Shown here in pieces: positions 1,339 to 35,854 of a stretch of DNA of 40,114 nucleotides. The stretch's first letter is position 1. Each line of letters starts with the position of its first letter. Made by a program: the position numbers and the translations under genes. The notes under the pieces are model-generated. The model was not told the DNA's origin and ran no database searches. It saw only the letters and a program-made list of their open reading frames with translations. Source of the stretch: a virus. The stretch covers positions 1 through 40,114 of IMG/VR virus record IMGVR_UViG_3300042946_000698. One strand, written 5' to 3'.

Positions 1339-2037
1339 TTATCTTCTAAATGATGTTTTATAGTCATCATCTTGAGAACCAGGTTGGAATGAATTTTTAA
1401 TATCATTCACATTTATATCTTCAACTTCATCCGAAGTTAAAACATAATCATTTTTTCCGGTTTTTTCCATCTCCTCTTGTTTGTCATCAAAAAATTGTGA
1501 TAATTTTTGATTGAAGGGATATGAATCATAACTTCTTAATTCAAGTTTTTCCTCAGGAGTTTTTTGTCGATATTTTTCAATCTTACTTTCAAGAGAATTT
1601 AATTTATTCATAATGTTATCCATTTCACCTAATTTACCTTCTAAATTAGATAATTGATTGAATAAATTTTCAAAATATTCTTCTTGTTTTGTTTCAATAT
1701 TTTTTTGAGAATCAACTAATTCCGTAATATCTAATTCTTCACTATCACTACCTTCGTCAGTTTTTTCCTCAGATTCACCTTCATCATCAATTTTTTCAAT
1801 ATCAGGGTCATTCTCAACATCAATAGGTTGAGGTGCGGTATCAGTTGGTGCTGCCGGTGGAACTGCTTCAGATGGTACCGGTGCTGGTGGAACATCTCCT
1901 CCCTCAGCCGGTGGTGGCGTTAACGCATCTAATCCAGCAGTTGGGTCTTCAGGCTCAATCGCCTCTTGCTCCATAATATACTTATTAATATTATGGTATC
2001 TACTAATCTCACTAATTATTTTTTTATCTAAACTCAT
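1339..2037 (-). CDS. Acidic, proline-rich coiled-coil protein with cargo-like N-terminal tag
   Basis: A 232-aa protein of unknown family. The N-terminus MSLDKKIISE-ISRYHN carries an I-S-E motif like the tags of other accessory proteins in this window. Residues about 25-75 are a Pro/Ala/Val-rich linker (PPPAEGG, PPAPVPS, PPAAP). Residues about 75-105 are very acidic (D/E runs). Residues about 105-160 have the heptad spacing of a coiled coil (NLFNQLSNLEGKLGEM). The C-terminus is polar and ends in arginines. Such acidic, low-complexity, coiled-coil proteins often serve as scaffold or internal virion proteins, but the function is not established. It follows the 74-aa gene by 6 nt and is the last gene before a terminator. 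Confidence 0.6.
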   Translation of the reverse strand: MSLDKKIISEISRYHNINKYIMEQEAIEPEDPTAGLDALTPPPAEGGDVPPAPVPSEAVPPAAPTDTAPQPIDVENDPDIEKIDDEGESEEKTDEGSDSEELDITELVDSQKNIETKQEEYFENLFNQLSNLEGKLGEMDNIMNKLNSLESKIEKYRQKTPEEKLELRSYDSYPFNQKLSQFFDDKQEEMEKTGKNDYVLTSDEVEDINVNDIKNSFQPGSQDDDYKTSFRR

Positions 2038-2043
2038 CTCTTA

Positions 2044-2268
2044 TTAACCATTTAATAATTGTTTAATTCCTCCCGCAGTCTCAACTCTAACTTTTCTGTT
2101 AACTGTTGTTTGATGACCCGCTCTCTCAATAAGTCCATCTCTTTCTCTGATTGTATAACAATCTCCGGTATCCAAATCACAAACCTGTTGTGTTCCGTCA
2201 CCATTATCCACTTGTGAAATTCTTGATGATTTTCCAAGATAATTATCTAATGCTGATTTAATGTTCAT
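2044..2268 (-). CDS. Small conserved-looking protein of unknown function
   Basis: A 74-aa protein. The middle, VDNGDGTQQVCDLDTGDCYTI, alternates Gly/Asp turns with short strands and has two cysteines five residues apart, suggesting a small beta domain. The flanking segments are an N-terminal amphipathic helix (MNIKSALDNYLGK) and a charged C-terminus ending GGIKQLLNG. I do not recognise the family. It lies between the giant hub gene and the acidic coiled-coil gene, has its own TATTTAT motif 15 nt before the start, and is probably a virion or assembly protein. An overlapping 61-codon frame in the same strand is a shadow. Confidence 0.6.
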   Translation of the reverse strand: MNIKSALDNYLGKSSRISQVDNGDGTQQVCDLDTGDCYTIRERDGLIERAGHQTTVNRKVRVETAGGIKQLLNG

Positions 2269-2283
2269 AAAATTGTTTTTATT

Positions 2284-2291
2284 ATAAATAT
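2284..2291 (-). promoter_or_regulatory. Late-type promoter motif before the 74-aa gene
   Basis: The minus strand reads ATATTTAT followed by AATAAAAA, ending 15 nt before the ATG at 2268. No TTTG or TTG lies at the -33 position. The core, the following AATAAAAA and the 15-nt spacing match the copy before the 1679-aa baseplate gene. Confidence 0.5.
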
Positions 2292-2317
2292 ATCGTTATG
2301 TTATAAAGTGAATATCA

Positions 2318-5300
2318 TTATTGATTCTCATATCCACCAGGTGATGATGTTTCATAAGGTAATAATGTAGGGTCATAAGTATATTGGTCAATTGTAGTGT
2401 ATGAACCAAAGTCAGTTGTAACCACAATATAACCTTTATTTACAATATCACTTGGTAAAAATTTAGGTGTAACCACTCTCATTGTTGAGTCATTGAATAT
2501 TGTAATACCAGTTAATCCAACCTCAACCCCATTAACTTTAACAGATTTGGTGGTGTTAAAATTTCTACCATTAAGTTGTATTATAGTACCTGTATTCCCC
2601 GACAATGGAGAAAATGATGATATAACCGGTGGAGGACAAGTTTGACCGGGTAGTGAAGGTATCGGTGAAGGTGTTGGTGTCACACTAGGACTACTTCCGT
2701 TTTTTTCAATCTCATTTATCTTGTTTTTTAATTCAGAAACAATTTCTTTGGTTGCAACACCAACTTCAAGAGCTGATGCCAACGCCCTATCCATAGTATT
2801 TCTAATTGTTTTAAATTCATCTATATGTTTATCGTAATAATCTGTTTGTTGGAAATTTTGTTTAGGATAATACGTCACATAATATTTAACCAAACCATTA
2901 TCTAATATTTGTTGAGTTCTATTTTCTAACCTAACTTTCATGAAATTAGTATAGTCATCCACACTTGAAAACCCAACAACAGGTAACGAATTATTTGTCG
3001 ATGGATTTGTCTGTACATTCACACATGAATATGTTTTCAAAAATGATGAAGATGTTGCCCCATAGTCAACATCTAACGAAACTGTTGCAAAATTATTATT
3101 CCAACCATTAAAAGTTCCCGCTTTACTATTATTAATTTTTTCAAATGAACGAACATATGAAATACAATAAACGATTGTTTGTAAAACTTGAGAATTAGGT
3201 ATTAATCGTTTTAATGTTGACGCAAACTCTTTCTCAGTTAAAGTCGTACTAATACCATCTATCACACTATACCCGTTGTTTTGATAAACAGGTAAAACTT
3301 TACTTTCACAAGTATTACTAGCCGCTTTTGTCGAATTCGCAGATTGTTGTGTATTGTTACTCTTATTTGAATCAGTTGACGCTGAAAATATATTAACTTT
3401 ATCTTTTTTAATTTTTAATAAACTTTCAATTTTTGTTAATAAATTTTGATTAATACTTTGAATAAAATTATCAATTGCAGGTAAATCATATATACCTTGT
3501 CTAACCCCATCAAATTGTGTTTGAAAATTACCAGGTTGTATAGAATGCGTAACATTGGTAATCATATACGGACCATTAAACATCGGTACATGCCTCAAAT
3601 TAAAATACATAGTAGGTTGTAGTAATGCATTACCTAATGATGTTACATTACATTTATAACTTCTTTGTTTATACAAGTTATACAATGAAGCATTTTGCGT
3701 CGCAACATTTTTACCTGACGATTGCTCAACCATATTAAGCTGAGTATTTATCGATTCTGATGTCGCAACTCCATTGTCTTGGGACACCGCAAAAGAATAA
3801 AATACACTTTGATTTCTGGTTCCAATATCAACATTAAAACCAACACATTTATTAGATAACGCCCAATCTTTTTTACCTTGTTGGTTCTCAATCAATGGGT
3901 TTTCCGATGCACGTCTCATCTCAAAACCATCATCCCTAAATCTAAAATTACCCTTTGGTAAATCCAAATATTGTGAAGGTTTACCCACATAAAAACAAAC
4001 CATTTTTGGACTTGATTTTCTATAATCAACATCTAAAAAAGTACCCCACATATTATTCGCAAACTCTAATGACCCTTCAGCTCTGTTTGGAATTGTAGTC
4101 CCATCAACATCTTGAACATTATAAAAATTGATATACGCAGGTAAATTCATAACCGTAAAGTTATTTTTAATCAATAAACCACTAATAAACGTATAAACGC
4201 TCATCGCCTGATTTAACGATTTTTTACTAAGCATACTTCTTAAATCGAAGATATCCAATAATATTGTTTCACCAATATTTCTTGATGCTCTATCTAAAAA
4301 TAATATATCTTCAAATAAAGTTTTTGTTTTATAATCACCACCGGCAATCCATTTATCATTTAACGATTTGAAAACTTCATAATTTTCAACTTTAGATTGT
4401 TCACCATCAATAGCACTTCTAATAACACTCTCAGGTAATTGTTGTTGGTTTGGTAATTTTTTTCTAACACCACTCAACACTAAATTCAAAAAATTATCTT
4501 GTAAAATATTTTCATTTGTCAAATACAAATTAATTTGATTTTGAAATTGAGCAACATTAATTGATGGATTTTTTAATTTTTGAGTCGCATACATTTTAAT
4601 AATTGGAGATAATAATGTCACATTATCCACATTAAATTCAATATTATTATCTATGAAAAAATCTGTAATATATGAACCATTATCACTATATCTCACATTG
4701 TTAATCGTTGAAAAACCAACCTCTGTTTCAAGTGCAATCCAAGCATTAGGATTCAACCCTTTTGATTGTGAAACGGTTAATCCACCACCATTAGTAGGTA
4801 ATGTATTCGTAATATATGGTCTAAACTTAATTGGGTCTACAACTTTTTGAGTATTATTATGTGATAAATAAGAATCAAAAATTCTTCTTTTATAATTTGA
4901 CGGATTTCCATACTTAAATAAAACATCGTAATTTATAAAGTTTTTAATACCCCCTTGAAAAACATTATACTGATTATTAATCGCGTTATTAAAATATTCT
5001 TCCTCTGTTTGGTTTACAGATTTTGCAGGAATTTTCATTAATGTTCTAAATAATGATTGAAAATTTCTATAAGTCGCACTACCATCAACCGTTGAGGTAT
5101 AGAAAGAAGATACCATATCTTTAGATGAAGTATCCGTAATTGGTTTACAAAAATTTAAAAATTCTTGTTCAAATGTATCCAATATTTTTTTCTCAAAAAC
5201 CGAAAATATTTCCTCAATTTTACTATACTTATCTTCATTCAATAATGACATTGGTGATTGTGTATCACCAGTGTTTATAAAATTCAAATATGATTCCGGA

Positions 5301-9145: not shown

Positions 9146-9458
9146 AATAATAAAAATGATTTTCTAATGATGCCTTATAGTCTTGTAAAGAAGGTAGTAA
9201 CGGGAATGGGATAATCAATATAGCTCCGTCATAAATGTTATTTTCTAAACCACCAAATTGTGGGTTTGCCTGTAAAATTAACCAACTAAAATATGGTGAG
9301 TTATAATATTCTTGTGAAACCTTATCAAGTCTACTTCGAGCAACTTTATATATATAAGCTTTATCTGTCGTTTTTTGAGGTAATTGCACATAGGGAACAA
9401 CGGTTTGTTCACCGTTTATTAAAAATTCACTATATCTGTTCCAATATTGAAAAGCCAT
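9135..9458 (-). CDS. 53: gp53-like baseplate wedge protein (LysM-like fold)
   Basis: A 107-aa protein. The central segment, RLDKVSQEYYNSPYFSWLI, then LQANPQFGGLENN and DGAILIIPF, has the spacing of LysM-like baseplate proteins of contractile systems: a helix with a Tyr-Tyr pair, a Trp, Asn-Pro, then a G-x-x-L-x-I-P ending. T4 gp53 is the wedge component of this kind; it joins wedges and helps fix the hub. The start overlaps the stop of the upstream giant gene by one base (TAATG), and its own end overlaps the next giant gene, so the three are almost certainly co-translated. The protein is shorter than T4 gp53 (196 aa), so it may hold only the LysM-like part. Confidence 0.6.
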   Translation of the reverse strand: MAFQYWNRYSEFLINGEQTVVPYVQLPQKTTDKAYIYKVARSRLDKVSQEYYNSPYFSWLILQANPQFGGLENNIYDGAILIIPFPLLPSLQDYKASLENHFYYYGR

Positions 9459-14497: not shown

Positions 14498-14512
14498 CAA
14501 TATTTTTTTATT

Positions 14513-14519: not shown

Positions 14520-14524
14520 GATTA

Positions 14525-17323: not shown

Positions 17324-17812
17324 TTAGTAAACTAATACACATCTATCCATACGAAGTGAACAAGTAATGTCTGCCAACGCATCTTGACTATAAGACAACG
17401 CACCAAAATTAACATCTGTTAAAAAAGTACCATATAATATCCATTTTTCAACGACTACTCCCGTTGGGTCTAACATTTCCAAATCAATATCTTTTTTATA
17501 TCCCGCAGCATAACCCATACGACCTGTTACAGACTCTGCATGTAAACGAACCCACTCCATAAGAGCTTGAGCCGCAGATGGACCGATTGGGTCTCTAAAT
17601 TTAACTGAAATTGGGTCCCAGTTAAATCTTCCCGCAACGAAAGTTGAGGTATTTAAAAATTGTATTTCAGTTGAATTAATTTTTATCGTTGGTCTTGATG
17701 CACTTTCCACAAACCACTCGTTAATCCCTAAACTTGATGGAAACCTTAATATAAATCGATTCTGTCTTTTCGGTTCATAAGGAATCGGCATTTTCATCAA
17801 TAAATCAGCCAT
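17324..17812 (-). CDS. 19: Tail tube protein, gp19-like
   Basis: 162 aa, essentially the length of T4 gp19 (163 aa). The sequence has the tube fold signature: a polar N-terminus with PYEPKRQNRFILRF, an early strand with SASRPTIKI, FVAGRFNWDPISVKFRDPIG in the middle, a helix ALMEWVRLHAE, and a C-terminal strand TCSLRMDRCVLVY. It forms the inner tube of the contractile tail and polymerises on the baseplate. The gene lies downstream of sheath and HAD genes, and upstream of chaperone and tape measure. The start ATG at 17812 has no Shine-Dalgarno sequence; a TATTTAT motif sits 34 nt upstream, the same distance as for the sheath gene. Confidence 0.85.
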   Translation of the reverse strand: MADLLMKMPIPYEPKRQNRFILRFPSSLGINEWFVESASRPTIKINSTEIQFLNTSTFVAGRFNWDPISVKFRDPIGPSAAQALMEWVRLHAESVTGRMGYAAGYKKDIDLEMLDPTGVVVEKWILYGTFLTDVNFGALSYSQDALADITCSLRMDRCVLVY

Positions 17813-17846
17813 ATTGTATTAAATTAGTTTTTCTTTGTTTATTATC

Positions 17847-17854
17847 ATAAATAT
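17847..17854 (-). promoter_or_regulatory. Late-type promoter motif before the tail tube gene
   Basis: The minus strand reads ATATATTTATGATAATAAAC, with the core ending 34 nt before the tube ATG. The sheath gene has the same motif at the same 34-nt distance. No -33 box is present. Confidence 0.5.
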
Positions 17855-17916
17855 ATCCAAACGGAAAATATTTATGTTGACTTTTTGAAATTATTTTATT
17901 ATATTTTAATTCCAGA

Positions 17917-17971
17917 CTAGTTTAATTAACTAGTTTATATTTTTTATTTATTTCTAGTTTTTTATAACTAG
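17917..17971. repeat. Cluster of four CTAG-centred palindromes in the HAD-tube intergenic region
   Basis: In the otherwise featureless, very AT-rich 181-nt gap 17813-17993, CTAG occurs at 17917, 17930, 17954 and 17968. Each is embedded in (A)ACTAGTT or TTCTAGTTT, and ACTAGTTTAATTA is repeated directly. The copies can pair with each other (CTAGTT-TAATT-AACTAG). They may be an operator array or weak terminator stems for the HAD gene. No protein-coding frame is apparent in the gap. Confidence 0.4.
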
Positions 17972-17993
17972 TTTAATTATTTTTATAAATATT

Positions 17994-18827
17994 TTAATAT
18001 TCTTTTTTTATTCCTCCTGCTGTTGAATAAGTTTTTACAATATTGTCCGGTTTGTCTTTGAAATGTTTTTTCATCACTTCCACGTTTCTAACATCGTCAT
18101 CAGAAAAACCAATTGTTGGTTCTTTTGGAATAAAATTGTTACTCACATCTTTTTTAAGAAACAAACTTTTTTTGTTTAAATTTTTAGATATTCCTTTAAT
18201 ATAATCCACAAATTTTTCCATAGCACGAACTTTAGCTTCTTCCGGATTTGCAGCACCTTCAGGGTCATTATATGAAACAGGATGAAATCTACACATATCT
18301 AAATAAGTTTTAATTAACTCATCGTCAGTCATATCTTCTTCATCTGAAATATCCCTATATTTTCTTAAATTTTTAACTAATTCATCTTTATCAATACCAT
18401 TAAAACCTTCTATAATATAATTGTAGACCGCTTGTTTTAATGTATTTGGATTATGTCCTCGAGCCGTGATAATTGAAAATATTGAACCTCCATTTATTGC
18501 TTCTCTAAAATCATCGAAAGCAGGTCCTAACTTGGCTCTCATAGCATCAACCAAAAAATCTTTATCACCTTCGGTTCTAAAATTTCTAAATGGATTGTCA
18601 GAATACCCCACAATAGTGTCACCTTTATAATTAAATGGTTTAACTCCAATATCATGTCGATATTCCGCAAAATCATCTGTACTCATTGTGACTTCATCAC
18701 CTTCATCATTTTTTAAAATGATTTTGGTCGGCATGTGAACAACATTATCATCCCAATCGAATGCGTAATATTTCATGTCCGGAGTACCCTTCTCGTCAAT
18801 TCCTTCGTGTATTCTTATTTTTCTCAT
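17994..18827 (-). CDS. HAD-fold phosphatase-like protein with N-terminal tag
   Basis: A 277-aa protein. HAD motif I is FDWDDNVV (residues 23-30, nucleophile D24 and acid D26). Motif II is SIITARG (about residue 119). A lysine-rich region (KKSLFLKK) precedes motif IV, GFSDDDVRN (about residue 238). All catalytic positions look intact, so a phosphatase or phosphotransferase acting on a small molecule or nucleic acid end is plausible; the substrate is unknown. Residues 1-8 (MRKIRIHE, then G) form a tag like those of other accessory proteins here. A second in-frame Met at residue 18 would start exactly at the HAD domain. The gene lies between sheath and tube, right after a terminator hairpin, so it should be expressed at a low level by readthrough. 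It is not part of any usual tail module. Confidence 0.7.
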   Translation of the reverse strand: MRKIRIHEGIDEKGTPDMKYYAFDWDDNVVHMPTKIILKNDEGDEVTMSTDDFAEYRHDIGVKPFNYKGDTIVGYSDNPFRNFRTEGDKDFLVDAMRAKLGPAFDDFREAINGGSIFSIITARGHNPNTLKQAVYNYIIEGFNGIDKDELVKNLRKYRDISDEEDMTDDELIKTYLDMCRFHPVSYNDPEGAANPEEAKVRAMEKFVDYIKGISKNLNKKSLFLKKDVSNNFIPKEPTIGFSDDDVRNVEVMKKHFKDKPDNIVKTYSTAGGIKKEY

Positions 18828-22134: not shown

Positions 22135-22169
22135 TCAATAAATGATGAAAAAACTTTACTTTTGAATAT

Positions 22170-22177: not shown

Positions 22178-22213
22178 AAAGAGTATGAATAAATTCTACC
22201 TTTTTTCTACCTT

Positions 22214-23409: not shown

Positions 23410-23421
23410 ATTTTATAATTT

Positions 23422-25218
23422 TTAATCCATTTCAAACATACCACCACCGAAATCGGTCGCTTTATTTCTAATTTCTTGTGGAACTTCAACATTTTCACTA
23501 CCTTTCAAATTAAGGAATGATAATTTTGACATATTTGCAATACATTTAGGTATTTCGGTTAATTGAGGATTATTGACTAACGCCAAAAATTTTAAGTTTG
23601 GTAATGAACAAACACTATCAGGAATTGAATTGATACAATTATCTAATAAAATCATGTTTAATTGTTTAAATCTACCAATGTCTTCAGGAACTTGTACAAT
23701 TAATCCCGGCGTATTTCTATTTATTATTTGGAATTGTTTTAACGTGTCAGGTAATGATTTGAATAAATCGTTTAATCCGTATAAAGAAACAAATTTACCG
23801 ACAGCACCTGAATCAAAATTATCAATTGTTAAGTTATCCCCACTTTGAGTTATTGATGACACAAATTTAGGTTTTAATTCTTGTTTTAATTGTTTTAACA
23901 TCGGAGTATTTAATAACGCCATATCTTCTTTTGATAAATTATTAATACTATTATCCTTAATTATATCAATTCTCTTTCCAATATAATATTTTAACACTTC
24001 AGGTTCTGATGAGTTTATCATCCCTGAAGTTAAATTCATCCCTAAAGCAATATATTTTTTCTTTAAGTCCGGTGTTAAGTTGGAATATTGAATATCTTTC
24101 AATGTTGGACTATTATATTCTAACCACATTTCAACTTGTTGTGGATTATTAAAATGTTCCATTGGATTATCACCCACTCTAGCATTCTTCACCACATTAA
24201 TCAACTCTCTTTCTTCTTGGGTTAAAGGTTCCGGTTTGAAAATATCTTTCAACCCTTCAAGTTTTGGTATTTTAGATACAATTTCATCCCATGGTAAATT
24301 TGTACTACCACCATATCTTCCCGAATTTGATTTGTCAGCTAACGCCATTCTTCCATCTGGGTCAACAAGGATTACGGACGCAAAATCTAAATCACCAAAA
24401 TCCTTATCTTCATCAATCACATAATAAAGGGTTCTTTCACTACCTAATCTATAATTGTAATACATATTACCACTACCTTCACGGCTCGTACACCAACCTC
24501 TACCATTTTTTAATCTAATACATTGGTCTTTTGTTTTTGGTGCAAATATTTTTAAGTTATTTTGGTCATATTTCAAATCAATATCATCAACACTACTTTT
24601 ATCTTTATTTGTTGCATCTTTTTTACCATCTAAACCATCCAACAAATGTTCCAATTCAGAGAAAGACATTTTATCAATACCTTTAGTTTCAAATGGTATT
24701 AAATCAAAATTTTCAACATAATTATTGATGTAGAAAATAACTTGGTCTTTTGTTAAGTTTGGGTTTTCTGCTAAAAATTTATCAATCATTTTTTTATTTA
24801 ATAATTGATGATACGCCTTATCAATTAACTTAACCACTTCAAGAAATTTAAATTTATTAATATCCTGATATTCCTTTGGTAGTTCAGATTGAATTTCCAA
24901 AAACTTTTTAATGTATTTACTCAACTGAACATTTTCAATTCCTTTTTCTTTTTTCTTAAATTGTTTGAAAATATCTGAAATTGTTTTAGCACTTTGTTTT
25001 GAATCAATTAATGATTTTAATTCATTATATGAATATTTTGTAATATCTCTTTTATCTGATGGTAATCCGTCTTTATATCTATCAAATGAATCGATATATG
25101 ACATTATAACCTCTTGGTCATCAGAAGTATCATCTTTAAATTTTGAATATAATTGGTTTTTTACTTTTTCTGAAACCTCATTCAATATATTTTCATTAAG
25201 GAATTTTAATAATCTCAT
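23422..25218 (-). CDS. Leucine-rich repeat protein with WCTS domain and N-terminal tag
   Basis: A 598-aa protein. The N-terminus MRLLKFLNE-NILNE-VSEK carries I/L-x-E sites like the other tagged proteins. Residues about 20-200 are charged helices. Residues about 240-330 contain GRGWCTSREGSGNMYYNYRL followed by ERTLYYVID, a W-C-T ... Y ... YYVID pattern that I have met in proteins of large phages but cannot tie to a reaction. The C-terminal about 100 residues hold four to five bacterial-type LRRs (LNMILLDNCINSIPDSVCSL, then PNLKFLALVNNPQLTEIPKC). LRRs bind proteins. A tagged LRR protein in a tail-gene region suggests a virion-associated or injected factor rather than a structural part, but nothing here proves that. 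A TATTTAT motif lies 16 nt upstream. Confidence 0.6.
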   Translation of the reverse strand: MRLLKFLNENILNEVSEKVKNQLYSKFKDDTSDDQEVIMSYIDSFDRYKDGLPSDKRDITKYSYNELKSLIDSKQSAKTISDIFKQFKKKEKGIENVQLSKYIKKFLEIQSELPKEYQDINKFKFLEVVKLIDKAYHQLLNKKMIDKFLAENPNLTKDQVIFYINNYVENFDLIPFETKGIDKMSFSELEHLLDGLDGKKDATNKDKSSVDDIDLKYDQNNLKIFAPKTKDQCIRLKNGRGWCTSREGSGNMYYNYRLGSERTLYYVIDEDKDFGDLDFASVILVDPDGRMALADKSNSGRYGGSTNLPWDEIVSKIPKLEGLKDIFKPEPLTQEERELINVVKNARVGDNPMEHFNNPQQVEMWLEYNSPTLKDIQYSNLTPDLKKKYIALGMNLTSGMINSSEPEVLKYYIGKRIDIIKDNSINNLSKEDMALLNTPMLKQLKQELKPKFVSSITQSGDNLTIDNFDSGAVGKFVSLYGLNDLFKSLPDTLKQFQIINRNTPGLIVQVPEDIGRFKQLNMILLDNCINSIPDSVCSLPNLKFLALVNNPQLTEIPKCIANMSKLSFLNLKGSENVEVPQEIRNKATDFGGGMFEMD

Positions 25219-25224
25219 TGTTTT

Positions 25225-25758
25225 TTAATTTATTATAAATATCTTATTTTTTAAGTTAATCATATCAACTTCATTGGCTTTGAATACTGGTTCTTCAGTA
25301 TCTTTCATAACATAAGTTGAGTATTTGTATGGGTTATAAGTAACGATATTACTATTTGGTTCATCAGGTAAATTATCACAAGGATATTTACAATAATCGG
25401 ATAAAGTACCAATTACAAATGAATGAACATTTTTTCGTTTTTCTTTAATTACTTTTTCTCTACCACCCGGTCTCACTCGGAACTCAACATCTTTAAGTTT
25501 AACATAATCTGCATGAATTACGACACGACCTTTATAGATAATTGAAAAGGTATGTTTATGTAAATTATAATATAACATAACCCTTTTACCCACATATTCC
25601 TTTTCTTCATTGTCGTGACCACACTTGTGACATATATATGGGTCGTTTCCTCCATCAGATAAATCCCATGACCAACCACACTCATCACAGATTACTTTAC
25701 CATCTGTGATAGTTTCAAAAATTCGTCTTATTTGTGATTCTAATACTAATACTTTCAT
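25225..25758 (-). CDS. Zinc-ribbon protein with N-terminal tag
   Basis: A 177-aa protein. The first residues MKVLVLE-SQIRRIFE form the short tag seen in other genes here. Residues about 22-50 make a zinc ribbon: CDECGWSW, a DLSDGGNDPY loop, then CHKCGHDN, giving four cysteines in CxxC pairs. The rest (KRVMLYYNLHKHTFSIIYKG, then VRPGGREKVIKEKRKNVHSF) is a basic beta-rich domain with an Arg/Lys cluster that could bind nucleic acid. The exact function is unknown. It sits 4 nt after the first of two paralogous genes. Its last codons contain the promoter motif of the LRR gene, which starts 7 nt further on. Confidence 0.6.
   Translation of the reverse strand: MKVLVLESQIRRIFETITDGKVICDECGWSWDLSDGGNDPYICHKCGHDNEEKEYVGKRVMLYYNLHKHTFSIIYKGRVVIHADYVKLKDVEFRVRPGGREKVIKEKRKNVHSFVIGTLSDYCKYPCDNLPDEPNSNIVTYNPYKYSTYVMKDTEEPVFKANEVDMINLKNKIFIIN
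25235..25242 (-). promoter_or_regulatory. Late-type promoter motif before the LRR gene, inside the zinc-ribbon coding sequence
   Basis: The minus strand reads ATATTTATAATAAATT, with the core ending 16 nt before the ATG at 25218. It encodes the final Ile-Phe-Ile residues of the zinc-ribbon protein, so the motif is conserved inside coding sequence. Confidence 0.4.
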
Positions 25759-25761
25759 TGG

Positions 25762-26157
25762 TTATTGGTCATCTGTTACCGTTGTTACGGGTAAATTAAA
25801 TTTATTTTCAAACCATTCTTTCATAGGTTCTTTCCAATATTCACCGAATAAACTATCCATATTCCAATAATCTCTATACTCTACTGACAATATTGGTGCG
25901 TCTTCCATCCAAACTTCAGAATTTGGTTCTCCTTCATAATACTCCTTTGAATAATACCAAAAAAGAATATCAGTATAAACTTCTCCCTCCCAATCACCTT
26001 CGTAAAATGTTCTAAGATTCTCATCTTCCATATCTTCATCACCAAAAGGGTCATAATCAACACCGTAAGTCCAATTTATTTCTTTAGATGAATACTTATC
26101 ATCTATGAACTTGTAAATTGCTTTATATAATTTTGTTTCAGGTATTATGTACTTCAT
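25762..26157 (-). CDS. Acidic tagged protein, paralogue A
   Basis: A 131-aa, very acidic protein. The start MKYIIPE-TKLYKAIYKFID and the C-terminal FGEYWKEPMKEWFENKFNL match those of the neighbouring 129-aa gene, while the middle (EGDWEGEVYTDILFWYYSKE, YYEGEPNSEVW) is more diverged. The two are tandem paralogues. The stop of the upstream copy overlaps this start by one base (TAATG), so they are translationally coupled. No catalytic motif is visible. The amphipathic N-terminal helix and the Trp/Tyr-rich end suggest a small protein-binding fold, possibly an anti-host or packaged factor. Confidence 0.6.
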   Translation of the reverse strand: MKYIIPETKLYKAIYKFIDDKYSSKEINWTYGVDYDPFGDEDMEDENLRTFYEGDWEGEVYTDILFWYYSKEYYEGEPNSEVWMEDAPILSVEYRDYWNMDSLFGEYWKEPMKEWFENKFNLPVTTVTDDQ

Positions 26158-26546
26158 TAATCCTCTACAATTGTTTTAACTGTTAATTTGAATTTATCTC
26201 TAAACCATTTTTTAAACGGTTCTTTCCAATATTCACCAAACATTGTTTCTAATTTTTCATAATTATTAACAATTAAAATTGGTGTTTTTTTTCTAAAAGA
26301 CCGACTATCAGGTCTATCTTCATAATATTCTTTTACTATATAAATAAATACCATCCCATTTTCATCATAATCACCATCATATTCTTTATTATAAAACTCA
26401 ATAATATGCGGATTTTCCTTATCTATCTCTTCATCTTCATCATATGTTTCCGGATTGAAAAAATCAATTTTATCCATATCGTAATACTCATCAATATACT
26501 GATAGATGGCTTTAAATAATTTACTTTCTGTTATTACGTATTCCAT
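26157..26546 (-). CDS. Acidic tagged protein, paralogue B
   Basis: A 129-aa, acidic protein. It begins MEYVITE-SKLFKAIYQYID and ends FGEYWKEPFKKWFRDKFKL followed by TVKTIVED, both aligning with the next gene downstream. The middle has DEDEEIDKENP and KEYYEDRPDS, shared in outline with the paralogue (KEYYEGEPNS). It starts within the stop of the 170-aa gene (TAATG) and ends within the start of its paralogue, so the three form a tight operon. The function is unknown. The duplication suggests selection for dosage or for two targets. Confidence 0.6.
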   Translation of the reverse strand: MEYVITESKLFKAIYQYIDEYYDMDKIDFFNPETYDEDEEIDKENPHIIEFYNKEYDGDYDENGMVFIYIVKEYYEDRPDSRSFRKKTPILIVNNYEKLETMFGEYWKEPFKKWFRDKFKLTVKTIVED

Positions 26547-27058: not shown

Positions 27059-27059
27059 C

Positions 27060-27380: not shown

Positions 27381-27382
27381 AT

Positions 27383-27414
27383 ATTGATAAATACTCCGTT
27401 ATCAACTATATTTA
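27383..27414 (+). promoter_or_regulatory. Host-type promoter of the SNF2 helicase gene
   Basis: On the plus strand, ATTG (27383-27386), a 20-nt spacer and TATATTTA (27407-27414) resemble the -33/-7 arrangement found before gene 32 and the DNA polymerase gene. A start near 27421 would give a leader of about 14 nt before the ATG at 27435. Confidence 0.4.
27387..27393 (-). promoter_or_regulatory. Late-type motif before the 106-aa gene
   Basis: The minus strand reads GTATTTATCAATATATG, with the core ending 6 nt before the start codon. It overlaps the spacer of the divergent SNF2 promoter, so the two may compete. A second copy in the same direction (ATATTTAT) lies at 27417-27424. Confidence 0.4.
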
Positions 27415-27434
27415 ACATAAATATTTTTGAATTA

Positions 27435-29186: not shown

Positions 29187-29192
29187 ACCAAC

Positions 29193-29223
29193 TTTGGATT
29201 ATTTATATGTAATGGATAATCCA
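29193..29223 (+). promoter_or_regulatory. 9-bp inverted repeat around a TTATTTAT motif before the SOD fusion gene
   Basis: TTGGATTAT (29193-29201) and ATAATCCAA (29215-29223) are perfect inverted repeats separated by 13 nt and ending 5 nt before the ATG at 29229. The spacer contains the end of TTATTTAT (29198-29205). There is no T-tract, so it is not a terminator. It may be an operator or an RNA hairpin controlling translation. Confidence 0.45.
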
Positions 29224-29228
29224 ATTAT

Positions 29229-30761
29229 ATGAAAAAAACAGAAGAACAAATTCAACAGATTCAAAAAACAATCCTTGAGGGTCACGTACTTAAGGAAAAA
29301 TATATGTTGATTACAGAAATGAAGAAAATAGGAATTGAAAAATTACCTTATTCTTACTCAGCCTTGAAACAATTCATCGACCCCGAAACGATGGAGTTTC
29401 ACTACAACAAACATTATAAAGGTTACGTGGATAAACTTAACGACGCTCTGTCAAAGAAAAAATACGGGGATTTAGAGTTATTACAAATTATCAAAACAAT
29501 AAGTCGATTCGATAAGACTATAAGAAATAACGCAGGTGGTGCCTTCAATCACGCATTATTTTGGAATATGTTGTCACCAACACCAACAAAACTTAAAGGA
29601 GAACTTCATAAAAAAATTATCAAACAATATGGAGGGTTCCCCCAATTCAAAAAAGAATTTGAAAAAATTGCAAAAGAAAGATTTGGTTCCGGATGGGTTT
29701 GGTTGATTTTAACATCAAAGAATACTTTGAAGATTATGTCAACACCAAATCAAGACAATCCACTAATGAATGTTATTGAAGGTGGTGGATTTCCATTATT
29801 AGGTTTAGATTTATGGGAACATGCTTATTATCTAAAATATAGAAACAAAAGAGATGAATACATTTCAAATTTTTGGAAAGTTGTTAATTGGGATTTTGTT
29901 TCAAAATTATATGATATGAAAATGGAAACAAAACTTCTTGAAACAACAAAAATGAAACAAATTATTAGTGAAAGTAAATCCAATATGTGTTCATCAACTG
30001 AGAATGAATTTTATAGAAATTTATTCAATACAAACCAAGATGTTAAATGGACTTATATGCATGGGATAAATAAGATTATGAAAGAGGTTTTTGCTGAAAA
30101 TTATATCAGTAATCCTCAAAGAGACCAAATGCCCGGTGTATATAATTTAGAAAAAGAAGGTAGGTCAGTTATTAATAAGTTAAATACTAATTATACCACA
30201 TTTTGTCTTTTATTGAGTGATTTAAATACTGTAATAACAAAACTTACCAAAAAATCACCAATTAATTTCAAAAACAAAACACCTCAAGAACAAGTTAAAG
30301 AAACTAACCGAATGGTTGCAGCATTAGATTATTTCAAATTTAGAATTTTCGATAAAGATAGTTCAACCTTCCAAAATTTAATGAAAGTTTTAACTGAAAG
30401 AGATGCGGTTGGTTCTAAAAGAGAGGAAATCACCGCGGCAATTTTAAGAAGATTTTTTGGAAAAGGTGTTAAAGTTGAGATTGTCGGTGAATTAGGTAGT
30501 AAAAAAGATGGTATTGAAGGTGTGGATATTGAAATAACTAAGGACGGAAAAAAACAAACAGCACAAGTCAAACCTTATAGAAACAAAATAATAACTGATG
30601 ATGGAATATCTCTTGAAGGTACGGGTAGCGTAAAAAATTATAAAACTGATTTGATGATATTTCAAAAAGGAAAAAGTGTATTAGTTTTCAATGAAAAACC
30701 AATTATAGTTAATGGTAATTTTTTATTTCCACTTGACTCATTAATATATGACATAAATTAA
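29229..30761 (+). CDS. Superoxide dismutase fused to a PD-(D/E)XK nuclease-like domain
   Basis: A 510-aa protein. Residues about 38-235 are an iron/manganese superoxide dismutase with all four metal ligands: H58 (MEFHYNKHY), H108 (AGGAFNHALFW), D194 and H198 (LGLDLWEHAYY). Gln in NQDNPL (Q175) and the AGG-FNH context are of manganese type. The normal SOD ending (KVVNWDFVSKLY) is followed by a second module. Residue 242 starts MKQIISE-SKSN, a tag like those at the N-termini of other genes here. The last part has an E399/E400 helix, GVDIEI (D433) and QVK (446-448), the layout of a PD-(D/E)XK nuclease. SOD removes superoxide; the nuclease substrate is unknown. ATG 29952 could also start the second module alone. 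Confidence 0.75.
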   Translation: MKKTEEQIQQIQKTILEGHVLKEKYMLITEMKKIGIEKLPYSYSALKQFIDPETMEFHYNKHYKGYVDKLNDALSKKKYGDLELLQIIKTISRFDKTIRNNAGGAFNHALFWNMLSPTPTKLKGELHKKIIKQYGGFPQFKKEFEKIAKERFGSGWVWLILTSKNTLKIMSTPNQDNPLMNVIEGGGFPLLGLDLWEHAYYLKYRNKRDEYISNFWKVVNWDFVSKLYDMKMETKLLETTKMKQIISESKSNMCSSTENEFYRNLFNTNQDVKWTYMHGINKIMKEVFAENYISNPQRDQMPGVYNLEKEGRSVINKLNTNYTTFCLLLSDLNTVITKLTKKSPINFKNKTPQEQVKETNRMVAALDYFKFRIFDKDSSTFQNLMKVLTERDAVGSKREEITAAILRRFFGKGVKVEIVGELGSKKDGIEGVDIEITKDGKKQTAQVKPYRNKIITDDGISLEGTGSVKNYKTDLMIFQKGKSVLVFNEKPIIVNGNFLFPLDSLIYDIN

Positions 30762-30772
30762 CATTTAATAAT

Positions 30773-30780
30773 ATATTTAT
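30773..30780 (+). promoter_or_regulatory. Late-type motif before the neck-like gene
   Basis: The plus strand reads ATATTTATAGTTATG, with the core ending 4 nt before the ATG at 30785. The same 4-nt distance is seen before the genes at 35363 and 36543. Confidence 0.4.
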
Positions 30781-30784
30781 AGTT

Positions 30785-31909
30785 ATGGCAGTTATACCGG
30801 AACCAGAAAGAAGTAAAATTTATACGAGAGTAAAACATCAGTTAGGTGCTCCACTAAGAAGTGTTGAGTTAGAAGACGAAATGATGGACTCGTTAATGGA
30901 ATTATCTATCGGAGATTACGAAGAATATGTTCTTCAGTGGTTGATAGATAGTCAGTGGGTTAATTTAGTTAACCTTAACATGAACGAAAAATCAGTTGCA
31001 AAAGCACTGATTACTAGAACTATGGACTTTGAACAACAATTTAGTTATTCATACTCTAAAATTGTTGGTCTTCAAACCGAAGGTCCATGGGTACTAAAGA
31101 AAGATTATTTTATATTAAGTGCGAATACTCAAACTTATGAAATACCTGCAGGTCGAGAAGTGAACGAATTACTTTGGTTTAGTGACCAAGCATGGACTGC
31201 ATTTGGTTTAGGCGGTATGGCAGGAGGATTTGGAGGTGTTGGTCTTGGAGCCAACGAAGCCGGATTCGCCCAAATGGGATACCAAGGGTCATACTTCATG
31301 ATGTCAGGTTTTGACTACCTTATTAGAATGCAAGAGGCAAATATTCTTAATAGAATTTTAGGAGGGTCATTAACTTATAGAATTACCGGATTACCTGATG
31401 GTAAAAAAATGATTCATTTATATAATACACCGGGAGGTAAATTTAATTGGTCTAATTATAATGCATATGTTGGTAAAGCGGTTTGGTATTGGTATTATGA
31501 TGTGACACCTGATAACAGAGCAGATTGTTTAAAAAACAACCCTGATGTTATTAAATTACCAACTGATGTTCCATTAGAAGAATTAAGTTGGGAAGACTTA
31601 AACGTACCGGGTCAACAATGGGTTAGAAGATGGTTTACCGCTTATTGTAAAGAAACCTTGGCAAGAGTACGAGGAAAATATAGTGGTAATCTTAAAACTC
31701 CTGACAGTGAATTAGTTATGGATTATCAATCATTACTTACTGAGGCAAAAGATGAAAAAACAAAATTAATTGAAGAACTCACCGGTGCTGAAGGATGGTT
31801 AACCAGATTAAGACCTGAAAAAGTAATGGAAAGAGAAGCGTTATTGGCTGAAAACTTAAATAAACAAATGAAATTTAGAGCGATGCCTCGACAAATATAT
31901 GTAATATAA
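30785..31909 (+). CDS. Virion structural protein, possibly neck protein (gp13-like)
   Basis: A 374-aa protein. The N-terminus, with KIYTRVKHQLGAPLRSVELE then DEMMDSLMELSIGDYEEYV, has the LGAP-x-x-x-VEL plus acidic helix pattern that I associate with head completion or neck proteins of T4-like phages (gp13). A Gly-rich segment lies in the middle (GLGGMAGGFGGVGLGANEAG). The C-terminal part is helical and charged, ending with RAMPRQIYVI. A neck protein would seal the filled head and receive the tail. It is transcribed opposite to the tail genes; the next small gene starts 4 nt after its stop. I cannot exclude another virion role. Confidence 0.45.
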   Translation: MAVIPEPERSKIYTRVKHQLGAPLRSVELEDEMMDSLMELSIGDYEEYVLQWLIDSQWVNLVNLNMNEKSVAKALITRTMDFEQQFSYSYSKIVGLQTEGPWVLKKDYFILSANTQTYEIPAGREVNELLWFSDQAWTAFGLGGMAGGFGGVGLGANEAGFAQMGYQGSYFMMSGFDYLIRMQEANILNRILGGSLTYRITGLPDGKKMIHLYNTPGGKFNWSNYNAYVGKAVWYWYYDVTPDNRADCLKNNPDVIKLPTDVPLEELSWEDLNVPGQQWVRRWFTAYCKETLARVRGKYSGNLKTPDSELVMDYQSLLTEAKDEKTKLIEELTGAEGWLTRLRPEKVMEREALLAENLNKQMKFRAMPRQIYVI

Positions 31910-31913
31910 TTTT

Positions 31914-32249
31914 ATGGCAATAGTAAAATCAATACCCTCAAGAAAAATTATAAATGGTGAAGTAATTAACACGTCCGAGGTTTCAGTAGTTTCTGAAACT
32001 GAATACAAAACAAATGGAGAAAGTTGTATAATAGTAAGAGGTGTTACACAATCAACCATAACTTTAGACTCAATAACTACAGACCATGTTGTTATAAAAT
32101 GTATGGTTAATACAGTAATAAAACCAGACCTTGGAAAAATAGATGAAGAATATGATGAAATAGGTGCAGATACATTTTCATGTATTGAGTTTAGGTTTGT
32201 ATCGGGAAATTGGTATGTACTTTCATCTGATGGATTAAAACAATCATAA
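31914..32249 (+). CDS. Small protein of unknown function, probably virion structural
   Basis: A 111-aa protein, predicted almost all beta (TSEVSVVSETEYKTNGESCI, then IVRGVTQSTITLDSITTDHV). It begins 4 nt after the neck-like gene and ends just before a bidirectional terminator. I do not recognise the family; the even beta content suits a small virion decoration or fibre-base protein. Confidence 0.5.
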   Translation: MAIVKSIPSRKIINGEVINTSEVSVVSETEYKTNGESCIIVRGVTQSTITLDSITTDHVVIKCMVNTVIKPDLGKIDEEYDEIGADTFSCIEFRFVSGNWYVLSSDGLKQS

Positions 32250-32251
32250 AT

Positions 32252-32282
32252 AAAAAAAGGGTCGAATTCGACCCTTTTTTTT
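32252..32282. terminator. Bidirectional terminator between convergent genes
   Basis: GGGTCGAATTCGACCC (32259-32274) is a perfect palindrome, flanked by seven A on the left and eight T on the right. It works as an intrinsic terminator for both the plus-strand 111-aa gene and the minus-strand DNA polymerase gene, whose stop codons lie within a few nucleotides. Confidence 0.9.
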
Positions 32283-32283
32283 A

Positions 32284-35007
32284 TCACACCATATTCAATT
32301 TTTCTTCCCATCCTTCTTCCGCAAGTTCATACATATAATCGGGAGATAATCCTCTTTTTTCCCAATATTTTAACTCTTGTTCTGTAACATCAAGAACATC
32401 TTCCTGTAATCTATCTTGGTCTCCTTCTCCTAAAGGATGTCCGTTAATCAGTTCACATTGTGATTTTGTAAAAATACCTCTTTTCGATGGGTCATTAACA
32501 ATCAGGTTCTTTCTTACCTCATCTTGAAATACAACCATTAGAGGTTCTATTCTTTTATTAAAAGTTGTGATTGCTCTTGGTACATTATAATCCCCTTTCA
32601 AATCAGGGTCGTTTTCTAAAATGTCTTTGTCCAACATATAACAATTAAGTTGAACTCCATCTCCTTTCTTTTGAACATCTCCGTGAGATGCTCTTAGTCC
32701 ATTATTAACATACATTATTACGTCACCCAAACTCACTTTTAGATTTTGTTGTAGTGCTAATTCCATATGAGCCATTCGAGACATACTATTACCTGCCTTT
32801 GTTTTAGTTGTAAGTCGTTTCTTATAATCTTCAATACTTAATTTTACTTTGGCTCTTTGAGCAATTTTACTTAAAGAAATTTGTTTATCATAAATTTTTT
32901 GTAAATATTCATAATAATATTCCACAAATCCGTGACCATTTCCTTCAAGTAATAACTTGACACCTTTATCCAAAAATTCCTCAATATATAAAGGTAGTTT
33001 TTTAGATTTAATAGTATTTCCGGTAAGTTTAATTTTACCTTTTGAATCCATAACTGCATAATTCTTACGAGCCAAATTTATTGTTGAAGGCCAAACACCG
33101 TCCGTATCCAAAGCCATTTCACCTCTCATAAAAGTATCATTATATTCGGCAACATCCGCCTCAGGACCATAATATTCTTTACCTATTTTAACTTTCCAAT
33201 TTAATCCTCGACCTATATAAACTCTATCTTTAGCCTCATCAGGTGTTGAGAAGTTAACCCCGTCCGTATCCATTACCAGTGGAACATAACCTTTTGACAT
33301 AAAAAACTTAATCATTTGACGAAGATATTGTCTTCCGGTACAAGTTATTTGTTCACCCATATACATGTCACCCCAAGCAAACACCTGTGGAGCCGATAAT
33401 GCACCAAACATACTATTGATGAAAATTTTAATAGGTAATTGTTTATTACCATACGATTCTGATTTTGCCTTATCTATTTCATAATACTCCTCAGCTAATT
33501 GTTTATATTTGATACGAGTATTACGGAAATAAGTTAACATACCTTTCATTGCTCCGGTAACATCACAATCAGGGAATACGTCATGTACTAATTGAATTGA
33601 GGGGTATAGGGAACTAAAGTCAAGTTTTAGTACATTCTTACTATAACCAACTTTTAATAGTCTTGAAAGACCTCCTACGAAGTCAGTTTTAGCTTCTTTT
33701 GCTGGAATTGCCAACCCATTCTTATATGACCATGCTAACATTAACATCTTCCATAGAGTTGCGGTTCCCATGGTTGAAACCCTTTCATATGTCGTTGGAA
33801 TCATTGCCGCCAACAAAAATGAACCTTGATTGAACTCTTGGTCAACTTTAAGAGTTTCATCTAAGTCATCGTCAAGATACTTTTCAACCAATTTATCTCC
33901 TGTAATTTTTTTGTAAATGTCCGTACGTCTTGAACAAACACCATCAATTTTTTCATCGACACCAACTTTCTTGTAATTACCATTAGTAGTATTCATCCAA
34001 AACTCATCTTTATTTGCGTAGAATGGACCAATATCTAAGTGGTCAATATAGACACGACTTGGAGATTCGGCATTAATATATTTGGTGATGTATTTTAATC
34101 CTGCCGCTTTAATACTTGAGTTGATTGCTTGAGCTCTACGAACCGCATGAATAATATCAATTACATTATATCCCCAAATAGAAGTTTGGGTATAAGTTTC
34201 AACCTCATTCGCTAATTTCAACATACCATCTTTACGAGTATATGAATGGTTAGGGTTTAATGATTTACAAACTTTCTTTAAATCAATCCCTAATATCTTA
34301 CTTCTTTCAAATATCCAATGCCAGTCAAAGTTTGCTGAGTTATACCCACCAATAATAGATGGTTTAAGTTCGTTAATTACTTTGAAGAATTCGATGATTG
34401 CACCCTTTTCTTCATTTTCATCAGTACATTCGATTACTCTATGGTAACCTTTATTGGTTTTAATCCCAATCATGAAGATACGACCGTCCTTAGGTTCAAG
34501 TGCTGTCGTCTCCAAGTCATATACCATTCGAGTAACCTCGTTATAGTTTTCAAACCCTTTAAATAATCTCTTTTCTTTGGATACAAGGTATTGTTCCACC
34601 GGAGATAGAAGTGTTATCTTATCCTTAGCTTTGTCACCCCATGGGTCACATCCACCATCCCTAAAGAATTGGATAAGTTCTCGGTACCCTTTCATAGACT
34701 TAACCATAAAGGTTAAACCTTTTTCAAGACGTTCGTTCCCGTGAGTTTCTAATTTCTCAATTAGAATCCCATACTTGGTCATCGCCTCTTTCTGAGCGGC
34801 TTTCGAGTCGTTATAAAATTTTAGATTTTTTAAATCACCTACCCAAGCGAACGGGGTAAAAGTGTCTTTACGGATTTCTTTCCCTTTTCCGGGAATCTCC
34901 TTAATTTTGTAGATACAGTTGTCTCGGTAATCATACTCGATTGCAACTATAAATTCTTCCGGGTCATTCCCATGTAGGAATGCCTCAATTTCTTCACTAT
35001 TAATCAT
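32284..35007 (-). CDS. 43: Family B DNA polymerase, gp43-like
   Basis: 907 aa, close to the 898 aa of T4 gp43. The exonuclease motifs are Exo I VYDLETTAL (about residue 165), Exo II GYNSANFDWHW (about 225) and a likely Exo III region around residues 360-390. The polymerase motifs are A KLDFSSLYPSI (about 459), B KIFINSMFGALSAP (about 524) and C VMDTDGVNFS (about 580). The glycine after motif C's second aspartate replaces the usual serine, as in some phage polymerases. It is the replicative polymerase and works with gp32. The gene has a host-type promoter at 35074-35105, with a long leader, and shares the bidirectional terminator at its 3' end. The length and motifs argue for a complete, active enzyme. 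Confidence 0.92.
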   Translation of the reverse strand: MINSEEIEAFLHGNDPEEFIVAIEYDYRDNCIYKIKEIPGKGKEIRKDTFTPFAWVGDLKNLKFYNDSKAAQKEAMTKYGILIEKLETHGNERLEKGLTFMVKSMKGYRELIQFFRDGGCDPWGDKAKDKITLLSPVEQYLVSKEKRLFKGFENYNEVTRMVYDLETTALEPKDGRIFMIGIKTNKGYHRVIECTDENEEKGAIIEFFKVINELKPSIIGGYNSANFDWHWIFERSKILGIDLKKVCKSLNPNHSYTRKDGMLKLANEVETYTQTSIWGYNVIDIIHAVRRAQAINSSIKAAGLKYITKYINAESPSRVYIDHLDIGPFYANKDEFWMNTTNGNYKKVGVDEKIDGVCSRRTDIYKKITGDKLVEKYLDDDLDETLKVDQEFNQGSFLLAAMIPTTYERVSTMGTATLWKMLMLAWSYKNGLAIPAKEAKTDFVGGLSRLLKVGYSKNVLKLDFSSLYPSIQLVHDVFPDCDVTGAMKGMLTYFRNTRIKYKQLAEEYYEIDKAKSESYGNKQLPIKIFINSMFGALSAPQVFAWGDMYMGEQITCTGRQYLRQMIKFFMSKGYVPLVMDTDGVNFSTPDEAKDRVYIGRGLNWKVKIGKEYYGPEADVAEYNDTFMRGEMALDTDGVWPSTINLARKNYAVMDSKGKIKLTGNTIKSKKLPLYIEEFLDKGVKLLLEGNGHGFVEYYYEYLQKIYDKQISLSKIAQRAKVKLSIEDYKKRLTTKTKAGNSMSRMAHMELALQQNLKVSLGDVIMYVNNGLRASHGDVQKKGDGVQLNCYMLDKDILENDPDLKGDYNVPRAITTFNKRIEPLMVVFQDEVRKNLIVNDPSKRGIFTKSQCELINGHPLGEGDQDRLQEDVLDVTEQELKYWEKRGLSPDYMYELAEEGWEEKLNMV

Positions 35008-35073
35008 ATGTTTTATTTAGGAGTGGTTTATTGGCAATCACTTAGTTGTGAAGTTTACCTTACTCATCGTAAA

Positions 35074-35105
35074 TAAATATAAAGATATTATCCTGATAAA
35101 TCAAA
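35074..35105 (-). promoter_or_regulatory. Host-type promoter of the DNA polymerase gene
   Basis: On the minus strand, TTTG (35102-35105), a 20-nt spacer and TATATTTA (35074-35081) match TTTG-N17-23-TAnnTTTG except for the final A. It lies about 66 nt before the ATG at 35007. The downstream element also contains ATATTTAT, so both promoter classes could act here. Confidence 0.55.
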
Positions 35106-35117
35106 TACCCTTAAAAT

Positions 35118-35142
35118 AAAAAAAAACCTCATCTGAGGTTTT
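35118..35142 (-). terminator. Terminator of the 38-aa protein gene
   Basis: AAAACCTC (35123-35130), loop ATCT, GAGGTTTT (35135-35142) form an 8-bp stem, followed on the minus strand by a T-run (nine A on the plus strand, 35118-35126, partly in the stem). The stop codon of the 38-aa gene overlaps the stem, so the transcript ends immediately after the gene. Confidence 0.8.
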
Positions 35143-35257
35143 ATTTATACGACACTTTCTTGTGTTTATCTTTTCGGTTATATGTCTTTTTACTTTTTTG
35201 AACCGATGGTCTTGATGCCATCCATATCTCTTGCATTGTGAAGGTAATTGTTTTCAT
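35141..35257 (-). CDS. 38-aa lysine-rich protein
   Basis: The minus-strand ATG at 35257 opens 38 codons ending at TAA 35141-35143: MKTITFTMQEIWMASRPSVQ followed by KSKKTYNRKDKHKKVSYK. The second half is strongly basic with eight lysines in 18 residues; the first half is hydrophobic, with a second Met at 8 and a third at 13. A strong host-type promoter lies about 45-75 nt upstream and a terminator follows, so the frame forms its own short transcription unit, consistent with an early protein. It may bind nucleic acid or a host protein. Nothing in the sequence shows a family. Confidence 0.6.
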   Translation of the reverse strand: MKTITFTMQEIWMASRPSVQKSKKTYNRKDKHKKVSYK

Positions 35258-35299
35258 AGTTTCTGTATGTGTTAAGGTTATTGTTTCATTTTGATAGGA

Positions 35300-35331
35300 C
35301 AAAAGTAATTCATTTATTTTATTCTGCCAAA
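35300..35331 (-). promoter_or_regulatory. Host-type promoter of the 38-aa gene
   Basis: On the minus strand, TTTG (35328-35331), a 20-nt spacer and TACTTTTG (35300-35307) are a perfect match to the Bacteroidota pattern TTTG-N17-23-TAnnTTTG. An A-tract (35332-35349) lies upstream like an UP element. The core AGTTTGGCAGAATAAAAT is repeated before the small-RNA unit at 36040-36070. Confidence 0.75.
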
Positions 35332-35350
35332 CTTTTTTTATTTTTTTTTC

Positions 35351-35358
35351 ATATTTAT
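35351..35358 (+). promoter_or_regulatory. Late-type motif before the 163-aa tagged gene
   Basis: The plus strand reads ATATTTATCATTATG, with the core ending 4 nt before the ATG at 35363. It lies just upstream of the divergent host-type promoter's A-tract. Confidence 0.4.
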
Positions 35359-35362
35359 CATT

Positions 35363-35854
35363 ATGAGAGATTTAATTAGACAGATATTAAGGGAATATAC
35401 GGAACCAAAACCAATTTTAGTATATGAGATAGTCGTTAATGATATTTTAAGTGAACAAGAATTTATTAAACAATTACATAGAGACGAAAATGGTTTAATA
35501 AATCTATATAAAAACGCACATTCTATGGATTCTGTTGGGACATCAAGCTCATTTCAAAGAGTTGACCCTGATGAAATAAATGATTCTATAATGGAATTAC
35601 AGAATACAATAATAAAAGCATCTAAAAAAATAATGGAAACTTGTACAGTTAGATGTACAATTAACGTTATCGATAATGTTGCTGGTATTGATTACCATAT
35701 GTGGTTAAATAAAAAACAAAATAGTAATAATATTAAGATAATAATTAATACATCAATACATCATCCTAATCACCTTAAGTTTAGAGTTAACACATCACCA
35801 ACCATAATTGTTGATAAATATGGTGACATATCCACAAGAAATATATATAATTAA
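35363..35854 (+). CDS. 163-aa protein with N-terminal tag
   Basis: The N-terminus MRDLIRQILRE-YTEPKP fits the tag series of this window (I-L-R-E). Residues about 20-60 are a mixed alpha/beta start (LVYEIVVNDILSEQEFIKQL). The middle is a helical stretch (DEINDSIMELQNTIIKASKK). The last 60 residues alternate strands and polar loops (IKIIINTSIHHPNHLKFRVN). No motif or family is recognised. It is the only plus-strand gene between two minus-strand host-promoter units and has its own terminator. The start at 35363 is fixed by the motif 4 nt upstream. Confidence 0.5.
   Translation: MRDLIRQILREYTEPKPILVYEIVVNDILSEQEFIKQLHRDENGLINLYKNAHSMDSVGTSSSFQRVDPDEINDSIMELQNTIIKASKKIMETCTVRCTINVIDNVAGIDYHMWLNKKQNSNNIKIIINTSIHHPNHLKFRVNTSPTIIVDKYGDISTRNIYN

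Follow-up and report, generated by a model that had tools for sequence, protein, structure and literature searches.

Tagged proteins of the window

The window analysed here, a linear fragment of 40,114 bases from IMG/VR (IMGVR_UViG_3300042946_000698), belongs to an uncultured T4-like phage of the contractile type. Its genes include those for a tail sheath, proteins resembling tube and baseplate components, a gp32-like protein and a phage DNA polymerase. Several of its genes start with a short peptide, here called a tag, that ends in (I/L)-x-E or a similar triplet, Table 1. As judged from sequence comparisons, it is very likely that these tags are capsid-targeting propeptides as on the T4 internal proteins and would be cut by a phage head protease. 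The first-pass annotation had listed seven tagged N-termini and an internal copy, MKQIISE, in a superoxide dismutase (SOD) fusion, and all eight peptides were found at their coordinates. It had also described seven genes of different fold. The tags stand but the count does not, because 25762-26157 and 26157-26546 encode paralogous proteins with 39.7% identity, leaving six independent families. Genes were called simply as the longest open reading frame (ORF) from the first ATG, and wrong starts are possible for some of them.

In most families the orthologues keep the ending of the tag. Among 47 distinct N-termini of HAD-like orthologues, nearly all retain [ILVF]-x-E, and the lead before it varies in both length and sequence (MRKIRIHE/G, MKRQLRE/G, MKKIIKE/G, MEHKQLVREIISE/I; a slash marks the candidate cut). 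A distant homologue has a class B start, MKVKLTE/S (the classes are described below). It looks as if the same enzyme may bear different tags in different phages. In the AlphaFold2 model, residues 1-16 have a pLDDT below 50 and nearly all of the remainder is ordered. The earlier description of this protein as a HAD enzyme is backed by sequence motifs and not by profiles or fold, as there is no Pfam match and the best PDB fold match, to HAD phosphatases, is weak (E 0.52).

For the acidic protein 1339-2037, both candidate sites are kept in four of four distinct orthologues, and for the zinc-ribbon protein the site is kept in most. The relative of the LRR protein in G003 (L122:4601-5923) carries a different tag of the same kind, MKFTSLLKDILLE/Q. 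Homologues of 25762-26157 start with MEYIITE, MKYTISE, MKIIITE or MKYVVTE, and E7 of its paralogue 26157-26546 is invariant across seven aligned homologues. A fold search with the class B protein gave matches only to uncharacterised phage models. The tag of 35363-35854 resembles MRDLIKKLLRE and MRELIKKILRE in the relative G002, and no orthologue of the protein was found. Its assignment follows from this class D resemblance only, and it could be a chance match.

Table 1. Tags, leaders and domains in the window, and the five tag classes of G002. Coordinates are positions in the window; a slash marks a candidate cut.
Feature	Coordinates	Strand	Sequence or basis
Leader of acidic Pro-rich protein 1339-2037	1969..2037	-	MSLDKKIISE/ISRYHNINKYIME/Q, two candidate sites
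Tag of HAD-like protein 17994-18827	18804..18827	-	MRKIRIHE/G
Leader of LRR protein 23422-25218	25177..25218	-	MRLLKFLNE/NILNE
Tag of zinc-ribbon / Phage_L5_gp82 protein 25225-25758	25738..25758	-	MKVLVLE/S; Pfam PF25735
Class B tag of protein 25762-26157	26137..26157	-	MKYIIPE/T
Class B tag of protein 26157-26546	26526..26546	-	MEYVITE/S
SOD-fusion leader, 30 residues	29229..29318	+	ends MLITE/MKKIGIEKLPY; orthologue comparison
Mn/Fe superoxide dismutase domain, residues 31-230	29319..29918	+	Pfam; PDB matches E 6e-57
Inter-domain linker (internal tag)	29934..29972	+	KLLE/TTKMKQIISE/S; orthologue comparison
C-terminal domain of SOD fusion	29973..30758	+	position after conserved linker site
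Class D tag of protein 35363-35854	35363..35395	+	MRDLIRQILRE/Y
Class A, G002			MSKIVRLTESDLIRLVKRVLKE; shared peptide MKKxIRLTESDLxRIVKRVIxE
Class B, G002			MKYIITEAQYKKLISE/Q
Class C, G002			MNLNENISRVKELMGLVSE/E
Class D, G002			MRELIKKILRE/A
Class E, G002			MNRSYSKIRHIQE

Tag classes in related phages

The tube protein of the window is 88-98% identical to its counterparts in the best 80 of about 600 viral contigs, two of which are 317-321 kb. In the 321-kb relative, G002 (G003 is the same species), many unrelated proteins start with one of a few peptides, which we group into classes A-E. The classes have only the ending in common, and by their patterns about 45 genes of this genome are tagged. 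The tag leaders span 7-30 residues.

A scan of 2.9 million viral contigs with the class A pattern gave at least 120 stretches. Among the viral loci listed, 207 of 213 matches to the LTESDL-type motif have a Met no more than 14 residues upstream, the commonest distance being 6, and the 221 class A proteins fall into 147 unrelated clusters once the tag is removed. When these proteins are aligned on the motif, the distal Glu holds 3.3 bits and the next residue 1.7, followed by 0.5, 0.4 and then about 0.1-0.2; in an alignment of 108 tagged proteins the consensus is likewise confined to the tag. At the distal site, P3 is I/L/V in 196 of 200 cases and I, L, V or M in 199, and the residue after the Glu is mostly Q, E, N, S or D.

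The shared start could in principle be a DNA or RNA element within the coding sequence, such as a late-gene translation or transcription signal, or the remnant of a recent duplication. The tagged genes are indeed clustered (between 200 and 220 kb of G002 they make up 17 of the 42 genes), and true paralogues occur among the tagged proteins. However, 120 of the 147 clusters consist of one protein each, for which no similarity could be detected past the tag, and the motif is also present inside the SOD fusion. Further, the codons of the conserved tag residues vary nearly as freely at synonymous positions as elsewhere, in a comparison where the scan pattern itself restricts serine codons; therefore the peptide, not the DNA, is under selection. 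We regard this explanation as very improbable.

Outside viral contigs the class A pattern is nearly absent: a scan of bacterial and archaeal genomes (257 Gb) gave three exact matches. Two of them are on one Prochlorococcus single-cell contig, and the third has no tagged reading frame. Several tagged ORFs are found on the contig QCKH01000009.1 (63,985 bp; L337, L338), which is filed under a Prochlorococcus single-cell genome and probably represents phage DNA that was co-sorted or mis-binned. A tblastn search with the 23-residue tag gave no match in 50,697 phage records, and therefore class A is so far found only in uncultured phages.

The tagged proteins have a median mature length of 123, and most have no assigned function. 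Recognisable cargo is rare: SOD, C39 and M23 peptidases, peptidoglycan-binding proteins and a zinc ribbon with a Phage_L5_gp82 domain. Pfam gave few matches for the 108 tagged proteins (PG_binding, C39, M23, MORN), PHROGs assignments are mostly unknown or endolysin-like, and the PADLOC matches of the tagged cargo were weak and unconvincing. A conserved class A protein (YMFFSNL...) adjoins the capsid gene at L097:10272-10742 (+). Small paralogous class B proteins of the MKYLITESQIDN..FKYLDNQDF type form tandem arrays at L231:6013-8551, L262:7736-10762 and L238:1186-3200. The longest has about eight members, and the arrays resemble a growing arsenal.

The cultured Flavobacterium phage immuto (NC_055915; host strain LMO8) has three sets of proteins that share a tag, M.NFDLKKFLVEN-type on four, MKKQILSEQF on two and MKKS[EQ]L..I-type on three. 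Their mature parts show no significant similarity, and most are encoded near the head genes. Candidate cargo proteins are at 102294, 103806, 111675, 113188, 117631 and 118632, with putative cuts such as KKFLVE/N, QILSE/Q or GIITE/S, and RQIIKE/A.

Enrichment over chance

The motif is loose, and the matches noted at first were picked from a single AT-rich window, so they might have arisen by chance. To count families in the window, the exact motif M[KR]-x(2,7)-[IL]-x-E was used with one count per family. The window has 3.5 families, against 0.3 in random internal windows (maximum 3) and 1.1 in shuffled N-termini (maximum 4). The signal of the window alone is modest, and its counts overlap the upper tail of the controls.

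The first-pass annotation had proposed a comparison with shuffled starts in related genomes, and here the enrichment is far above chance. In G002 a basic [IL]-x-E N-terminus is found in 50 of 384 proteins, where 6.8 +/- 2.6 are expected (maximum 16 in 500 draws); counted by family the numbers are 25.6 against 7.1-9.0 (maximum 14-17). Such starts occur in 12 of 158 proteins of G004 against 3.0 (maximum 9), and in 13 of 207 proteins of immuto against 3.6 (maximum 10).

T4 served as a control. Over its whole genome the basic form shows no significant excess (8 against 3.8, maximum 12), and the general motif exceeds expectation (40 against 23.4, maximum 35). The general-motif matches include ipII, ipIII, gp24, gp22, gp67, gp68, gp21 and Alt, i.e. 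most of the known head-protease substrates. The motif is thus sensitive but unspecific, and therefore single matches need support from orthologues. It also catches the neck-like protein 30785-31909, which starts with MAVIPE (MA[VA][IL]PE/PERSK in relatives); this match is probably coincidental, and it is a reason to consider single matches weak. Since orthologues keep the site and the relatives are enriched, chance is refuted for the lineage, and as an explanation of the whole set we give it hardly any weight at all. Individual members, notably 35363, could still be chance.

Sites inside the SOD fusion

The internal copy MKQIISE begins at residue 242 of the SOD ORF (nucleotide 29952), within the linker between the two domains. 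In 15 of 15 distinct orthologues [IL]-x-E is found immediately N-terminal to the SOD domain, and in the linker the orthologues conserve [ILV]-x-E/[SGQ] with a variable spacer. These conserved sites on both sides of the SOD domain suggest a polyprotein cut inside the head. The simplest reading of the sequence is that the head protease would free mature SOD, with the C-terminal domain presumably released as a second protein. The latter domain has only a weak Pfam match, MC4, below the cut-off (E 0.016).

The whole fusion covers 29229-30761, and in the versions in L041, L046 and L049 a further domain of about 125 residues is fused at the N-terminus. Every join in these fusions has a candidate head-protease site.

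Protease, capsid protein and scaffold

No protease gene had been seen in the window. The fragment has none, but Peptidase_S77 (gp21-like) was found in the relatives G001, G002 and G004 with E-values of 1e-22 to 5e-25. Of 18 large contigs that bear tags, 12 encode it, among them each of the five that reach 250 kb or more. In L097 the gene of the gp21-like protease is at 17417-18133 (-).

The gp23-type capsid protein has the same kind of site, LINE/A in every orthologue of the lineage and QIVSE/A in immuto, where the mature protein would start with ANVTG. The alignment places the site where the N-terminal stretch ends, directly ahead of the conserved start of the shell, and this is the place where T4 gp23 is processed. 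The N-terminus of the protease itself, MKNLRILE/A, was considered as a self-cut site and rejected, as the following residues are equally conserved and distant homologues have no site.

The class A helix is amphipathic, with a moment of 2.09 against 0.96 when shuffled, and its net charge is positive on average, while for the gp22-like scaffold the median is -73. Together these properties suggest that the tag may dock on the scaffold.

Amphipathic basic helices are also typical of other targeting signals, and the tag might address another place, such as a phage-made compartment, a membrane or host machinery, with the (I/L)-x-E ending being incidental. However, the conservation ends exactly after the Glu, the capsid protein has the same site, and it is only this ending that the different classes share. 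Further, a site between SOD and its fusion partner is not expected for a plain N-terminal address. This alternative appears unlikely.

Lineage and neighbouring genes

The head-gene neighbourhood of G002 comprises terminase, portal, protease and capsid protein, and a small reverse-strand ORF at 108711-108896 looks bS21-like by our own reading. According to the excerpted text of PMC9723584, the same head-gene neighbourhood is found in bS21-encoding large phages from freshwater Bacteroidetes, whose predicted hosts are Bacteroidota. On the basis of this excerpt, these phages and G002 probably belong to the same lineage. The tag-bearing lineage is one of widespread, abundant, large uncultured phages, and it probably infects Bacteroidota.

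For positions 1-25000 of the window, no DNA similarity was found in the phage collection. The genes at 36560-39637 look like a series encoding glycosyltransferases or sugar-transfer proteins.

Proposed mechanism

The core of the T4-like propeptide idea, raised in the first-pass annotation, passes every computational test available; docking, cleavage, packaging, injection and effector action of the tagged proteins are steps that we infer. During assembly, the short, usually basic and often amphipathic segment would guide the protein into the prohead core, where it would probably dock on the very acidic gp22-like scaffold. A gp21-family protease would then cut after (I/L/V)-x-E, the kind of site that the capsid protein also has, and the mature protein would stay in the head. 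When the motif is between domains, as in the SOD fusion, the cut would release separate proteins. The cargo would be carried in the virion and probably be ejected into the host along with the DNA.

Several observations weigh against the propeptide model. Six of the 18 tag-bearing contigs have no Peptidase_S77, all of them (possibly) incomplete fragments. The site is missing in the HAD-like homologues L045 and L052 and is lost in the zinc-ribbon proteins of L077 and L021, and (I/L)-x-E is a loose motif. Finally, in the class B protein 26157-26546 the mean pLDDT of residues 1-10 is 66 and the ordered fold starts at residue 7; the helix beyond the first site is an element of this fold as predicted, and therefore only the first site, which would remove a 7-residue piece, is plausible.

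The system might even be a general delivery platform, with some 40-50 cargo proteins per genome, interchangeable tags and polyproteins cut in the prohead. This extension is tentative, and we put it somewhat below an even chance. If it is true, superoxide dismutase, for example, would already be mature when it is delivered on infection.

Only a minority of the proteins of large environmental phages have been assigned a function, and a readable head-loading tag would sort more than 100 unknown families into one testable class. The tagged class is probably the set that first meets the host defences, as the T4 internal proteins do. The natural tags are on offer for loading proteins into Bacteroidota phages, and the cultured phage immuto is a practical test case for the system.

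Comparison with known systems

In the literature searched, i.e. open-licence PubMed Central, neither a description of the tags nor their strings were found, and no virion proteomics of the lineage came to light there. A conserved N-terminal motif of phage RaK2 (PMC3622015) serves tail-spike docking and is unrelated to the tags. The bS21-encoding large phages are alike in the head-gene neighbourhood, and the excerpted text of PMC9723584 mentions no tag or cargo set.

In SPN3US and phiKZ, a gp21-related protease removes N-terminal propeptides from head proteins by cutting behind a motif that ends in Glu, and in SPN3US two paralogues have an identical N-terminus (PMC5694885). The ejection proteins of these phages are thus similar in having a Glu-ending propeptide for a gp21-related protease. 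However, their motif is S/A-x-E and most of the propeptides are longer than 100 residues, whereas the lineage has I/L/V-x-E and 7-30 residues.

The closer likeness is to T4, whose internal proteins were long of unknown function. The T4 core takes up these proteins via a 10-19-residue N-terminal capsid-targeting sequence, removed by gp21 after L/I-x-E, and after injection they inhibit restriction systems (PMC9026906, PMC12373910). Packaging is proven for T4 and predicted for the lineage. IPI, IPII, IPIII and Alt share with the lineage the short N-terminal leader ending in (L/I)-x-E, the gp21-family protease together with a gp23-type capsid protein that has the same kind of site, and the many unrelated small cargo proteins behind a common leader. 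Unlike T4, the lineage has several distinct tag classes, a longer two-site tag in class A, sites within polyproteins, of which the SOD fusion is an example, and about 45 tagged genes in G002 compared with three internal proteins and Alt, an order of magnitude more.

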